NCBI GenBank assembly: GCA_016777005.1
Contig: JADHSF010000008.1
Span: 1 to 46,372 of the forward strand
Direction: 5' to 3'
Length of the DNA stretch: 46,372 bases
Source of the DNA: SAR86 cluster bacterium
GTDB taxonomy: Bacteria > Pseudomonadota > Gammaproteobacteria > Magnimaribacterales > Magnimaribacteraceae
A program made the translations under genes and the position numbers. Below, piece after piece: positions 4,536 through 29,949 of the stretch (position 1 is its first letter; every line of letters starts with the position of its first letter). The notes under the pieces are model-generated. The model was not told where the DNA came from and did not search any database. It saw only the letters and a list, made by a program, of their open reading frames with translations.

Positions 4536-5140
4536 TTGGTCCTTTCAATTTTTCCTTCTGAACATACATAAGTCAATGGATCTCCTGTAGCTATCTCTAG
4601 TTTTACAATATCTTCCGAGCTGATTGATTCTAATTCCATTACGAGCGCCCTTAACGAATTCCCATGTGCAGCCACAAGAATATTCAATCCATCTTTTACC
4701 TTAGGCATTATCTCTGTTTCAAAGTAAGGAAGAACCCTTTCTGCAGTATTTTTTAAACTTTCCCCTCCAGGCGGAGGTATATCAAAAGATCTTCTCCAAA
4801 TATGAACTTGCTCCTCGCCCCATTTCTTTCGAGCATCATCCTTATTGAGTCCAGCTAATTCGCCATAGTTTCTTTCATTTAGGCATTGATCTTTTATTGT
4901 CAGAATAGAACTCTGATCCATTTGTTCAAGTATCAAGCGTCCAGTTTCTTGTGCTCTAAACAAGTCTGAAGTAAACATGATATCGAATTCAATATTTCTT
5001 AACTTTAATAAATTGCCTGCCGTTATCGCCTCTTCAATTCCTAGTTCAGTTAATTTAGGATCTTTCCAACCTGTAAATAAATTTTTTTTATTCCATTCGC
5101 TTTGGCCATGTCTCACAAGAACTAGATTTGATTTCTTCAT
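4532..5140 (-). CDS. gpmA: 2,3-bisphosphoglycerate-dependent phosphoglycerate mutase GpmA
   Basis: Interconverts 3- and 2-phosphoglycerate in glycolysis and gluconeogenesis. The 202-residue protein has the phosphohistidine motif [10 protein letters not shown] (His11), the [13 protein letters not shown] segment typical of d[20 protein letters not shown], and the second histidine in [10 protein letters not shown]. It is shorter than the roughly 250-residue enteric enzyme and resembles the compact form found in other lineages. It is divergent from the rhodanese gene and convergent with hisF, sharing a 4-base overlap that holds both stops. Confidence 0.93.
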
Positions 5141-6994: not shown

Positions 6995-8066
6995 TCTTTA
7001 AGTCTAGTTCTTTATGAGCATTAATAGGGATATTTATAAAGAATTCAGTTCGATTAGGTTCGCTTGTGAAATGAATATTACCTTTATGTTGAGAGATAAT
7101 TCCTTGAGTAATAGATAGACCTAGACCAGTACCCTTATCTTTACCTGTAATCATTGGAAAGAAAATTGAGTCTTTGATTTCTTCTTGAATTCCAGGGCCA
7201 TTATCTACTACTGATATCTTGCAAACTGTTGAATTTTTTTCTCCATCAATAATTTCTCCGTGCGAAATTCTTGTAATAATATTAATTTCTGGTGATGAGG
7301 TTTCAGAGTCCATTAAAGCATCGCGGGCATTCTTAGTAAGATTTAAAATGCTATTTTCTATTAAATAACTATCTATATATAAGTCGGGAATGCTCGGATC
7401 AAAATCTTTAGATACTTTAATATTTTTGTATCCTGATTCGTTTTCTATAAGATTTAAAACGTTCTCAATTGGATAATGAATGTTTTGATATTGGAAATCA
7501 GGCTTCTTATTTGGTCCGAGAATATTGTCAACCAATGATGTAAGTCTATCAGTCTGTTTAATTACAATATCAGTATATTCTTTAAGTTCTTGAGTATTGA
7601 GTTTATTACTCAGGAGCTGGGCAGATCCTCTTATTCCGCTGAGAGGATTCTTAATTTCGTGCGCTAGTTGTCTGACGAAATCTTGAGAAATTTGTTGGTT
7701 TGCTCTCATCCTATATCTTTCAATAAGCTCAGAAGATGCCTCTTTATTTATTATCTCAAGCAGTAATCCATTTTCATCATTATCTCTTAATGGGTGGGCA
7801 ATATATGTACATAAAACCTTACTGCCTTTTTTTAAATTCAAAACCGCATCTGTTTTCGTGAAGCTTCTTTTTTGTTCGATAGATTCATTGAAAGCCTCAA
7901 AACTCTCTGGATCTTCATAAAAAAGTTGATCTATCTTCTGGCCCACAGACATTTTTTCAGTAGTGTCCAGAATTGTTAGGGCAGAAGCATTTATAAATTT
8001 AACTCTTAAGGCAGTGTCTAGAATGACAATACCCGTATTAAGTTCAGAAAGAAGAGATTGATTCAA
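6981..8066 (-). CDS. glnL: Nitrogen regulation sensor histidine kinase NtrB (GlnL)
   Basis: A cytosolic histidine kinase of 361 residues with no membrane segment. An N-terminal PAS domain (about 1-110) leads into the HisKA helix with phosphoacceptor His136 in RQLAHEIKNPLSG. The ATPase domain has the N box NLTKNARDAL, G1 VVDNGPGI and G2 GTGLGLSI. In the family it phosphorylates or dephosphorylates NtrC under control of PII. The start is TTG at 8066; no Met follows until residue 39, which would cut into the PAS domain, so TTG is preferred. A strong hairpin separates it from glnA. Confidence 0.94.
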   Translation of the reverse strand: MNQSLLSELNTGIVILDTALRVKFINASALTILDTTEKMSVGQKIDQLFYEDPESFEAFNESIEQKRSFTKTDAVLNLKKGSKVLCTYIAHPLRDNDENGLLLEIINKEASSELIERYRMRANQQISQDFVRQLAHEIKNPLSGIRGSAQLLSNKLNTQELKEYTDIVIKQTDRLTSLVDNILGPNKKPDFQYQNIHYPIENVLNLIENESGYKNIKVSKDFDPSIPDLYIDSYLIENSILNLTKNARDALMDSETSSPEINIITRISHGEIIDGEKNSTVCKISVVDNGPGIQEEIKDSIFFPMITGKDKGTGLGLSITQGIISQHKGNIHFTSEPNRTEFFINIPINAHKELDLKIANG

Positions 8067-8082
8067 GTTACTCTTAATAGAT

Positions 8083-8105
8083 ATCCGGAGATAGAATCTC
8101 CGGAT
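8083..8105 (-). terminator. Perfect hairpin between glutamine synthetase and ntrB
   Basis: A 10-bp perfect stem (ATCCGGAGAT / ATCTCCGGAT) closed by a 3-base loop. It lies 17 bases downstream of the glnA stop and 17 bases upstream of the ntrB TTG start. No long T run follows on the minus strand (ATCTATTAAG), so it is more likely a leaky terminator or an mRNA-stabilising or processing hairpin than a strict terminator. A glnA-distal terminator before ntrB is known in enteric glnALG operons. Here it would let glnA be made in excess over the regulators. Confidence 0.65.
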
Positions 8106-8121
8106 TGCCTATCAAAGTTAA

Positions 8122-9093
8122 TTATGAATTTAAGGTTCCTACTAGGTGAGCTATGATTTTGTATGGATCAGCGTTTGAAGCAGGTCTTCTATCTTCAAGA
8201 TAACCATTCCAATTATGCTCTACTGTATAGATAGGAATTCTAATACTTGCGCCTCTATCACTTACACCATAAGAAAATTGGTCTATGCTCTGAGTTTCGT
8301 GTAGTCCGGTCAGCCTCATATCATTGTCTGATCCATATAGAGCAATTCCTTCATTGTGAACAGCTCCAAGCTTTTCACACATTGAATTGAATAGTTCTTC
8401 TGACCCTGCAGTTCTCATAGCTTCGTTAGAGAAGTTAGCATGCATTCCAGATCCATTCCAATCACCTGATTTAGGCTTAGGATGGAAATTAACTGAAACA
8501 CCAAATTCTTCTGCTACTTTATGTAATAAATATCTACTAACCCAAAGATCATCACCTGCTTTGATTCCCTTACCTAGACATTGGTATTCCCACTGCCCAA
8601 GAGCAACCTCTGCATTAGTTCCAGTAAGTTCAATGCCAGCATCCAAGCATGCATCCAAGTGCGCATCACTTATTTCTCTTCCCACAACATTACCAGCTCC
8701 AACGGCGCAGTAATATTCTCCTTGAGGTCTGCTAGGAGTTCCATCTTCCCATCCAAGAATAGTTCCATCTTTATCAGTCAAGAAATACTCTTGCTCAAAG
8801 CCAAACCACCATTCGTCAGTCACTACAGCTTCTGCAGCAGCTCTAGAATTAGAGGGATGAGTTTCATGTTCACCAGTTTCAACTTGGCACATTACCAGAG
8901 ACCCTTCATTAGTTGGATTCTCATATTGCTCTACTGGTACTAAGATACAATCTGAACTTCCACCTTCAGCTTGCATAGTTGAAGAGCCATCAAAGGACCA
9001 AGCTGGCGGTTCCCCGTCAGTGACTTTAACTTTACTTCTAAGATTAGCTTCAGGTTCATAACCATCTAGCCATATATATTCATATTTTGTCAT
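8122..9093 (-). CDS. Glutamine synthetase, type II (GSII, eukaryote-like)
   Basis: ATP-dependent ligation of ammonia to glutamate. At 323 residues it is far shorter than the roughly 470-residue GSI expected beside ntrBC, and its motifs are those of GSII: YIWLDGYEP near the start, WSFDGSST, WFGFEQEYFL, GQWEYQC, NGSGMHANFS, and the ending EDRRPASNADPY. No GSI-type Tyr adenylylation segment is present, so control by GlnE-style adenylylation is not expected. A GGAGAAA ribosome site precedes the ATG. Position upstream of ntrB-ntrC implies nitrogen control. The symbol is left empty because glnA usually denotes GSI; glnII or glnN would be used by analogy. Confidence 0.95.
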   Translation of the reverse strand: MTKYEYIWLDGYEPEANLRSKVKVTDGEPPAWSFDGSSTMQAEGGSSDCILVPVEQYENPTNEGSLVMCQVETGEHETHPSNSRAAAEAVVTDEWWFGFEQEYFLTDKDGTILGWEDGTPSRPQGEYYCAVGAGNVVGREISDAHLDACLDAGIELTGTNAEVALGQWEYQCLGKGIKAGDDLWVSRYLLHKVAEEFGVSVNFHPKPKSGDWNGSGMHANFSNEAMRTAGSEELFNSMCEKLGAVHNEGIALYGSDNDMRLTGLHETQSIDQFSYGVSDRGASIRIPIYTVEHNWNGYLEDRRPASNADPYKIIAHLVGTLNS

Positions 9094-27539: not shown

Positions 27540-27567
27540 TTGAATTAGTATCATAAATTGATATACG
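27540..27567 (+). promoter_or_regulatory. Candidate promoter for the secreted-protein gene
   Basis: TTGAAT (27540-27545), a 16-base spacer, TATACG (27562-27567), then an AAAGGA ribosome site 6 bases before the ATG at 27596. The spacing is good and the -10 match is 4/6. It suggests that this gene is transcribed separately from folK. Confidence 0.35.
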
Positions 27568-27595
27568 ATTGGAGGATTAATAACAAAGGAATACT

Positions 27596-28312
27596 ATGAA
27601 AAAATTAATCTTAATGATGCTTGCTTCATTATCACTGTTCATCTTTGCAGATGGCCATGAGAGTGCACCAATGTCTACTGATGGAGCATTTACTACTTTG
27701 CAGGTAGCTTCACCTGATATTGAAAAATACAGACAAACCCTTATTGATAATCCTTCAGCTTTCCAAGCCACAGGAGCCACGGCTGCTGGTATTTGTGTAA
27801 CCAATAGTGGGCATGAATACTTAGGTCAAATGATGGTTTGGAGTGCATTCCCGAATGTAGCTGCTGCGTTATCAGGAAGTACGATGTATGACCCTCAAAA
27901 AGCTCCTAGAAGCTTTGAAAGGCTAAGAGAAGTTAAATATGGAGTAACTTGGAAGCCTATAACTCCTTTTAGACTTGAACCAGGTTTTGAAAGAGTTCAA
28001 AGAATAAAAGTTTCTGCAGAAAACATGGATGCTTTTACGGCGGCAATCGATAATCTGGAAAAAGCCATTCAAGATGCCGGTTATGAAAATTTTTATAATG
28101 GAGCTTTTGTTTTAATTGGCGGAGGCGATCGTGATGTAGGAACAGTAATAGTTCGCTCTATAGTTCGAGATGCTAATGCTATGGGAGTCTTATTTGACGA
28201 ATTCTTTGCAGGTAATGCTTCTTGGGCTGATGAATATCAAACAGTTACTTCATTGGGAGAAGTGGTTTCGGACAATATGGAAGTTTGCGAACAACTCTAT
28301 TTCGGAAGTTAA
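27596..28312 (+). CDS. Secreted protein of unknown family, possible tandem alpha-beta barrel
   Basis: A 238-residue protein that I do not recognise. It has a clear signal peptide: Lys-Lys, a hydrophobic core (residues 4-17) and a likely cleavage after IFA (residues 16-18) before DGHES. There is no lipobox Cys. The mature part seems to be two similar halves. One runs from FTTLQVASPD to about residue 120, the other from RVQRIKVSAENMDAF onward; each starts with a strand followed by a helix and has a later GEYLGQ/GTVIVR-like strand. This resembles ferredoxin-like (ABM/EthD-type) dimeric barrels, which is inference only. Two Cys residues (67 and 232 by approximate count) could form a disulfide. 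It is monocistronic, with a terminator after it. Confidence 0.7.
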   Translation: MKKLILMMLASLSLFIFADGHESAPMSTDGAFTTLQVASPDIEKYRQTLIDNPSAFQATGATAAGICVTNSGHEYLGQMMVWSAFPNVAAALSGSTMYDPQKAPRSFERLREVKYGVTWKPITPFRLEPGFERVQRIKVSAENMDAFTAAIDNLEKAIQDAGYENFYNGAFVLIGGGDRDVGTVIVRSIVRDANAMGVLFDEFFAGNASWADEYQTVTSLGEVVSDNMEVCEQLYFGS

Positions 28313-28321
28313 ATAGTTATC

Positions 28322-28358
28322 AATGCCTGGATATCAAGGTATTCAGGCATTTCTTCTT
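28322..28358 (+). terminator. Intrinsic terminator after the secreted-protein gene
   Basis: AATGCCTG and CAGGCATT form a perfect 8-bp stem that extends inward with G-T, A-T, T-A and A-T pairs to about 12 bp around a 6-base loop. It is followed by TTCTTCTT. It lies 10 bases after the stop at 28312 and before the 3' end of the convergent MFS gene, which it may also serve. It is one of the few convincing terminators in the window. Confidence 0.75.
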
Positions 28359-28368
28359 GAACCTTTCA

Positions 28369-29949
28369 TTAGATGTTTTCACCAAGTGCCCTTGCTCTTT
28401 CCGTAACTGATTCTTCATCTTCCTTAAGATGTTTAACGGCCATAAATAAAGTGACTGTTGGTATTAACAGTATGAAAAGAATCAGCGCCATAGAAGTCTG
28501 CATTGCTTCTCCAGGAGCATAGCCTTGATATTCAAACATATCGCTTATTCTTCCCAAAGTATAAGGACCAAGCGCCAGTCCTATCATGCTTAGTGTAAGT
28601 ATAAAGAATGCACCTGCCATAGCCCTCATTCTTGGTAAGACCAAGTTTGTAACTGTTGTGGCTGCGCAACCTACATAAACAGAACTCCCTATGTGATAAA
28701 TAAAATTATAAACTAAAGAGGCATTTCTGCTTTCAGAGTAAATCATACCCAGACAACCTAATGTTGTTATTAAAACTCCACCAACGAATATAACGTAGAG
28801 TCTTCCCCCAGAATACTGATCTCTTAGTTTATCCCCAAAATACCCGCCACCAATGACTCCAATAAAAGATCCAATGGCAGTTATTAACCCAATCATAGTG
28901 CCAATTTCTAAGGCCGTCATACCATGATAGTTAATGTAGAAAGAAGGCGTGAAAGCAGAGTAGGCATAACCCACAAATGGTATGCAGGGGAAAGAGATAA
29001 ATGAATAGACTATTGCTTTACTTCTAAACATAAGAGAAAAGGCAACAATATCTCGTTTACTTAAACTCTGTATCCAGGTACATACTAAATAAGTACCAAT
29101 ACCCCAAGCCACCCACTGTAAGAAGTCTCCAGTCAGGCGATATAAGGAAAAGCACAAAAGAAAAATAGTGGTTGCAACTAGAAGATTTATAGCAAGAGAC
29201 TTTAGGGTATCTTTATTCCCTAAAAGAGATAAAGGCGTCAATCCTATAAATTCTTTAAATGTATCCTTGAAAGGTTCTTTGCTCTGCTCTGTGACAATGC
29301 CTTCACTCATACCCTTTATGGGTTCTTTAATAAATGTAAAAGTAATCAGTGAAAGTAAAATACCTGGAAGTCCAACGCCCATGAATGCTGCTTGCCATCC
29401 TTTGAGTCCTAATGGAGCCTGTGTGGGGTCAGGAAAAGCAGAATTCCAAGTATCTAAAATTGCACCTCCTAAAAATAAGCCAATTCCAGCTCCGAGGTAG
29501 AGACCACTTGAATATATTGATAATACAGTAGCTCTTACTCTGGGAGAGAAGTAATCTGAAAGAAGAGAATAGGCAGAAGGAGTTGCAGTTGACTCTCCAA
29601 TACCGACGCCAAATCTATAAATCGAAAGACTTAAAAAAGACTTTGCGGTCCCAGACATAAAAGTCATCAAGCTCCAAAATGCCAGTCCTACACTAATAAG
29701 ATTTTTTCTATTCCATGAGTCTGCTAATTTACCCATGGGAATACCCACTACTGAATAAAAAACTCCAAAAGCTGTTCCAAATAAGAAACCTATATCACTA
29801 TTGGAGATTCCAAGATCTGCCTTTATATCCTCCGCCAAGATAGAAAGAATCTGTCTATCGACAAAGTTAAAAATATAAACTAGTACGAGGAGGCTTAGGG
29901 CAACTTTGGCATGGTAACCACCAACCTCAGAATTTTTCTCTTCTGACAA
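28369..29949 (-). CDS. MFS transporter, spinster-like
   Basis: A 526-residue major facilitator with about twelve helices. The first helix has the NFVDRQILSIL motif and the loop 2-3 signature is GKLADSWNRKNLI. Helix 4-5 has RFGVGIGESTATPSAYSLLSDYF, typical of the Spns/ExuT-like marine MFS group. A long central loop and an extra helix pair make it longer than the usual 430-450 residues. The substrate is unknown. The start is TTG 29949, set by GGGGAG 7 bases upstream. It is the last gene of the minus-strand accessory run, so it may import or export the compound handled by the upstream hydratases. Confidence 0.88.
   Translation of the reverse strand: MSEEKNSEVGGYHAKVALSLLVLVYIFNFVDRQILSILAEDIKADLGISNSDIGFLFGTAFGVFYSVVGIPMGKLADSWNRKNLISVGLAFWSLMTFMSGTAKSFLSLSIYRFGVGIGESTATPSAYSLLSDYFSPRVRATVLSIYSSGLYLGAGIGLFLGGAILDTWNSAFPDPTQAPLGLKGWQAAFMGVGLPGILLSLITFTFIKEPIKGMSEGIVTEQSKEPFKDTFKEFIGLTPLSLLGNKDTLKSLAINLLVATTIFLLCFSLYRLTGDFLQWVAWGIGTYLVCTWIQSLSKRDIVAFSLMFRSKAIVYSFISFPCIPFVGYAYSAFTPSFYINYHGMTALEIGTMIGLITAIGSFIGVIGGGYFGDKLRDQYSGGRLYVIFVGGVLITTLGCLGMIYSESRNASLVYNFIYHIGSSVYVGCAATTVTNLVLPRMRAMAGAFFILTLSMIGLALGPYTLGRISDMFEYQGYAPGEAMQTSMALILFILLIPTVTLFMAVKHLKEDEESVTERARALGENI

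Follow-up and report, generated by a model that had tools for sequence, protein, structure and literature searches.

The gene studied here lies at positions 27596 to 28312 of the plus strand of the window, by which we mean the whole stretch of DNA analyzed, 46,372 nucleotides of a contig from a SAR86 cluster bacterium. It starts with ATG and encodes an exported protein of 238 amino acids with two halves, which has relatives in 10 species genomes at 52-98% identity, seven of them titled SAR86 cluster and three Gammaproteobacteria. The dN/dS ratios are well below 1 against the relatives L002 (dN 0.009, dS 0.23, ratio about 0.04), L003 (dN 0.059, dS 1.09, ratio about 0.05) and L004 (dN 0.21, dS 1.71, ratio about 0.13), and the gene is therefore real and under purifying selection.

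Residues 1-18 (27596 to 27649, plus strand) read as a signal sequence, MKKLILMMLASLSLFIFA, followed by DGHES, and the leader is probably cleaved after A18. The signal peptide of the original prediction is borne out by the hydrophobic leader seen by eye in all 11 rows of alignment A1, which holds the window protein and its relatives; in the full-length AlphaFold2 model, residues 2-18 form a low-confidence helix. The leader of the window protein contains no cysteine and hence no lipobox. VISC is found in the leaders of 2 of the 11 rows, L010 and L011, and these two proteins might be lipoproteins.

A ribosome binding site, AAAGGA, is present on the plus strand at 27585 to 27590, 5 bases 5' of the ATG; it is kept in L002 and L003, agrees with the good site described before, and the upstream sequence AAAGGAATACT is identical in these two and the window. 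Downstream, the strong terminator anticipated from the sequence corresponds to a terminator-like hairpin between convergent genes (28322 to 28351, plus strand), with 13 pairs, -16.3 kcal/mol and a z score of -3.27, a fold equaled in 1 of 200 shuffles; the terminator scan returned this 1 site against 0.7 expected by chance. Since the neighboring downstream gene is convergent and ends at 28369, the hairpin may serve both genes. The gene had also been credited with a promoter of its own, which the promoter scan did not bear out: between 27450 and 28450 it gave 2 promoter-like sites, both on the minus strand, against 3.0 expected by chance. By eye, TTGAAT (27540-27545) and TATACG (27562-27567) are spaced by 16 bases, with 8 of 12 matches. 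The convergent genes between 28369 and 32769 were named by eye as a major-facilitator transporter, two MaoC-like proteins, a phosphotransferase-like protein and a short-chain dehydrogenase, and their order is the same in L004 and L006.

An exported family of the SAR86 order and its gene rows

SAR86 bacteria are abundant in the surface ocean and have small genomes, in which many genes are nameless; the genomes of the order that we searched measure 0.7-1.8 Mb. The window protein very probably represents one branch, group A, of an unnamed exported family with at least three groups in this order, as judged from profile comparisons. Neither Pfam nor NCBIfam gave any match to it at E values up to 10, consistent with the original prediction, in which the family went unrecognized. 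Searching Pfam with the 30 members of the group A alignment (A2) at E values up to 1 yielded 15 families, each matched by at most four members and none of them ABM or EthD. Two of these matches, both weak, were to DUF1330 (two members, best 0.018) and NIPSNAP (one member, 0.012), which we take to be of the same superfamily as the window protein; TcaA_2nd (0.0025), Alginate_exp (0.0026) and the other Pfam names were taken as chance. Pfam searches with one group C protein, two group B proteins and one neighbor protein gave nothing convincing, viral contigs contained no relative of the window protein or of A2, and a literature search of titles and abstract openings found nothing on this exported barrel family of SAR86.

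The groups were compared by hhalign using A2, A3 (group B, 14 rows) and A4 (group C, 18 rows). With leaders included, the E values were 4.9e-26 for A2-A3, 1.3e-9 for A2-A4 and 1.7e-7 for A3-A4. Because leaders inflate the similarity between groups, the comparison was repeated without them, with 50 column shuffles as a mild control and E values that apply to a single comparison: groups A and B still aligned over nearly their whole length (7.5e-22; best shuffle 0.0071), and group C aligned with either over one half only, its second half with the first half of A (3.1e-5; best shuffle 0.033) or of B (5.9e-6; best shuffle 0.027). A putative common repeat ancestor explains this crosswise match.

Within the order, the A2 profile, whose matches extend to group B, hit 79 of 203 genomes at E values up to 0.001, and a single group C sequence matched in 100 of 202 at E values up to 0.01. 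The union of both, 145 of about 203 genomes with 34 in common, is a lower bound, since incomplete genomes are numerous and the group C search used a single query; genomes G039 and G013 indeed carry group C-like genes missed by that search. The original prediction had suggested a profile search for homologues, and in class samples the relatives all belong to the window's own order (A2 profile, 2 of 369 genomes; A4, 3 of 369; A3, 1 of 166). The A4 profile, which did match in the class sample, found 0 of 369 in a phylum sample that contains no known positive genome. So far, the family appears to be confined to SAR86, which is not to claim its absence elsewhere.

Rows of family genes occur in at least 23 genomes, which were picked by eye from the A2 and group C listings for adjacent matches on the same strand and then checked. 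The gene orders are AAC, AAAC, ACC, BAC, BC and CC, so that C comes last wherever it is present with another group. Gaps between matches are of 1 to 48 bases in 29 of 36 cases; the seven larger ones (116-125 in six genomes and 416 in G036) occur at incomplete matches to group B, and with whole reading frames the gap in G036 is 15 bases instead of 416. Directly adjacent members were also present in 6 of 17 longer regions, a chosen, nonrandom set: four belong to the 23 genomes, and the two additional ones are L130 (G039), with A followed by C, and L143 (G013), with B followed by C. In the genome of the window, which is 82.6% complete, there is one family member and no group C match.

Neighbors of the family differ between lineages. 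In L004 and L006, which are of the window's lineage, the gene is flanked by folK and a major-facilitator transporter, and in L008 and L011 pheST is found upstream of it (all names by eye). Among the regions listed, which exclude most of L133, all of L134 and the start of L135, recurring neighbors are limited to one order family or a few regions: an oxidoreductase-like (c3) and a SelO-like (c4) protein in L128, L129, L144 and L145, all of order family f3 and three of them also with a nuclease-like protein (c6); and a small membrane-like protein (c18), shared by L128, L136 and L141. We read the recurring neighbors in f3 as probable shared synteny, not as partners.

Some further exported or ABM-like proteins occur near family genes. 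The group C gene of L143 precedes a gene that belongs to a different exported family. Cluster c5 consists of four exported proteins of about 250 amino acids (L143:5205-5981 and 7472-8236, both on the minus strand; L128:9974-10714; L137:9275-10027), and its genes flank the B-C pair of L143 on both sides; no c5 protein was matched by the group A, B or C profiles at E values up to 10, and c5 is possibly another two-half group. Directly upstream of the group A gene of L008, a gene at 4662-4979 (plus strand) encodes a 105-amino-acid single-half protein, ABM-like by eye, with a weak match to NIPSNAP (E 0.13). Cluster c23 has three lipoprotein-like exported members adjoining or near group C genes (among them L136:12780-13580 and L139:5476-6282), and these proteins show, by eye, a repeated pattern that contains cysteine.

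A predicted barrel of two ferredoxin-like halves

AlphaFold2, given 11 sequences with 52-98% identity to the first, produced models of the full-length protein (pLDDT 74.4, pTM 0.69) and of the mature form (pLDDT 80.7, pTM 0.76), and in both the order beta-alpha-beta-beta-alpha(-alpha)-beta appears twice. In the full-length model, the first half comprises residues 31-121 (27686 to 27958, plus strand), with strands at 31-38, 63-69, 78-85 and 114-121 and helices at 42-51, 88-98 and 105-110. The second half comprises residues 130-234 (27983 to 28297, plus strand), with strands at 130-138, 167-175, 183-190 and 222-234 and helices at 141-160, 193-204 and 211-219. The mature-form model has the same order of strands and helices in both halves. 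Two related segments at about residues 33-120 and 131-238 had been proposed from the sequence, together with a tandem ferredoxin-like fold; the predicted boundaries agree closely with the former, and the two models, the fold comparison and the half-to-half alignment agree on the latter, with neither a single nonrepeated domain nor an unrelated fold emerging from structure prediction or fold comparison.

PMC4835899 describes the ferredoxin alpha+beta barrel as two beta-alpha-beta-beta-alpha-beta domains, carried on one chain or two, and lists both ABM and EthD in the superfamily. Two such domains are found in both predicted models, which match solved members of the superfamily across both halves. 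The window protein thus belongs, with high probability as modeled, to the ferredoxin alpha+beta barrel superfamily (Pfam clan CL0032) as a single-chain, two-half barrel. The ABM/EthD type assigned by the original prediction holds for the fold, which is shared, and is unsupported as membership of ABM (PF03992) or EthD (PF07110), for which profile matches are absent as for every Pfam family at E values up to 10.

Both models were compared with solved structures by Foldseek and VIA-align. The first solved match in Foldseek was 2pgc in either case (E 7e-10 for the full-length model, 1.9e-10 for the mature form). With VIA-align, 2pgc led for the mature model (Z 17.9, next 15.9; 191 residues aligned, 2.7 A), the best 15 rows of which have Z scores of 13 to 18 over about 190-210 residues, and it tied for the full-length model (Z 16.1) with 5f9p (16.2) and sulfur oxygenase reductase (15.9). 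The next rows include 3gn6, a Chlorobium ORFan whose title calls it a ferredoxin-like domain repeat, and putative monooxygenases. The protein in 2pgc is JCVI_PEP_1096685590403, an uncharacterized marine metagenome protein with a single chain of about 206 residues. It resembles the window protein in being marine and in giving the best fold match over the mature protein, but identity is only about 10-14%. It was the best sequence match of the group C profile in the PDB (E 0.013), and neither the window protein nor the profiles of groups A and B recovered it there at E values up to 10, their matches being at chance level. When a 134-residue piece of 2pgc was searched against 202 genomes of the order, no convincing relative emerged (best E 0.0186), so that close kinship with SAR86 is unsupported and 2pgc is at most a distant cousin, although one of the 12 chance-level matches of this piece falls inside a group C gene. 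None of the 10 papers listed out of 373 in a literature search mentions 2pgc, nor do two passages of PMC2744874.

The halves were also aligned with each other after removal of the leaders, with 100 column shuffles as a mild control and again with E values for a single comparison. The result was weak for group A (E 0.0015 over 68 columns; best shuffle 0.017), better for group B (1.8e-4 over 55 columns; 0.0066) and clear for group C (7.3e-11 over 90 columns; 0.029). We infer that the barrel arose from an ancient duplication of a beta-alpha-beta-beta-alpha-beta half, the half alignment of group A being weak by itself.

Conserved residues and possible functions

The window protein contains exactly two cysteines, Cys67 in strand 2 of the first half (codon at 27794 to 27796, plus strand) and Cys231 in strand 4 of the second (codon at 28286 to 28288, plus strand). 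Each is a cysteine in 30 of 30 A2 rows and in 14 of 14 rows of the aligned A3 column. A ferredoxin-like sheet has beta2 and beta4 at its edges, so Cys67 and Cys231 could meet at the barrel seam, and they may form a disulfide. Tyr45, Trp82, Arg111, Tyr115, Lys120, Arg133, Arg136 and Arg187 are likewise kept in all 30 A2 rows, and no histidine column reaches 85% in A2 (30 rows) or A3 (14 rows). Group C has another pattern: in A4, the cysteines are not conserved columns, and the first half contains an invariant Asn-Gly ... Thr-His motif (residue 77 of L076:1674-2411), with the one invariant histidine (18 of 18 rows). At the matching place of the second half, located by eye, Thr-His occurs in 12 of 18 rows and Ser-His in 2 more, and this repeat-symmetric histidine pair of group C could bind metal or heme.

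We infer a function as a ligand-binding barrel, possibly a cofactor-free oxygenase. In the mechanism that we propose, the leader would be removed upon export to the periplasm, where the two sheets would close into one barrel. A disulfide between Cys67 (beta2) and Cys231 (beta4), each on an edge strand, would lock the barrel seam, and the barrel and the pockets under the helices would hold a small organic ligand. This ligand would probably be anionic or aromatic, given the conserved Arg, Lys, Tyr and Trp and the lack of a conserved His in A2. As a whole, identity and modeled mechanism together, this is our best explanation, on which our confidence is evenly balanced. Its more specific part, ligand binding without a metal or heme cofactor, seems plausible from the alignments, with doubt slightly outweighing confidence. 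Because genes of several groups often form one row of fixed order, groups A, B and C may work together, either assembled into a mixed oligomer or as several binders that differ in specificity. Cooperation of this kind could equally be true or false to our mind. The window's genome has one member, so its branch gets by without groups B and C there.

One alternative is that the exported protein would work as an ABM-like oxygenase or isomerase that needs no cofactor and whose substrates would be dissolved compounds of aromatic or polyketide-like nature. The invariant Trp, Tyr and Arg residues could form a site for such chemistry, and high fold rows include the anthrone oxidase-like 5f9p, the monooxygenase PenE (9kdp) and two putative monooxygenases, 3f44 and 3mcs, with alignments that cover about 190-207 residues at Z scores of 13.3 to 16.2. 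However, these structures share 7-13% identity with the window protein in the fold alignments and have no profile match to it, no ABM profile matches it at E values up to 10, the best fold match, 2pgc, is titled merely as a marine metagenome protein, and a fold by itself does not give a function; we hold this alternative to be somewhat unlikely.

Alternatively, the genes of a row might encode subunits of a single mixed multibarrel assembly, in which ligand binding would be secondary to a structural role. The adjacency of the genes in 23 genomes, with C in last place, fits this idea, as does the formation of large oligomers by barrels of the superfamily, for instance in sulfur oxygenase reductase with its 24 barrel units (PMC4835899). 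Against it, many genomes, including the window's, have a single match; we hold such an assembly to be rather unlikely. As a fold match, sulfur oxygenase reductase (2cb2, 6m35) aligns over about 205-210 residues with Z scores of 15.1 to 15.9, but it is about 90 residues longer than the mature window protein. Its mononuclear iron site needs His ligands, and no conserved His is present in A2 or A3.

An exported binder or enzyme for heme or another tetrapyrrole is clearly improbable. Chlorite dismutase, HemQ, DyP and HmoB share the fold, with Z scores of about 8 to 12, but the first three have a conserved heme-ligand His, whereas A2 and A3 lack a His column at 85% or more and the one invariant His belongs to group C. 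Heme binding is known in several ferredoxin alpha+beta barrels, according to PMC4835899. Finally, that the two halves resemble each other by chance in one ordinary domain is most improbable, for although the group A halves alone give just E 0.0015, and 0.055 when aligned poorly end to end, two models, the fold searches and the group C halves at 7.3e-11 speak against it.

Preferring the ligand-binding barrel, we note that the fold is already well known and the surprise moderate; of greater interest is the setting of the family in SAR86. It is doubtful, though conceivable, that SAR86 evolved its own periplasmic system of disulfide-locked duplicated barrels, in three groups encoded in one row of fixed order, which would coassemble to capture or oxidize one class of dissolved organic compound. 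An exported family whose window member has no Pfam or NCBIfam name now has a fold, a probable origin by repeat and a closest solved structure, together with candidate residues and a gene order that enable the design of a binding or activity screen.
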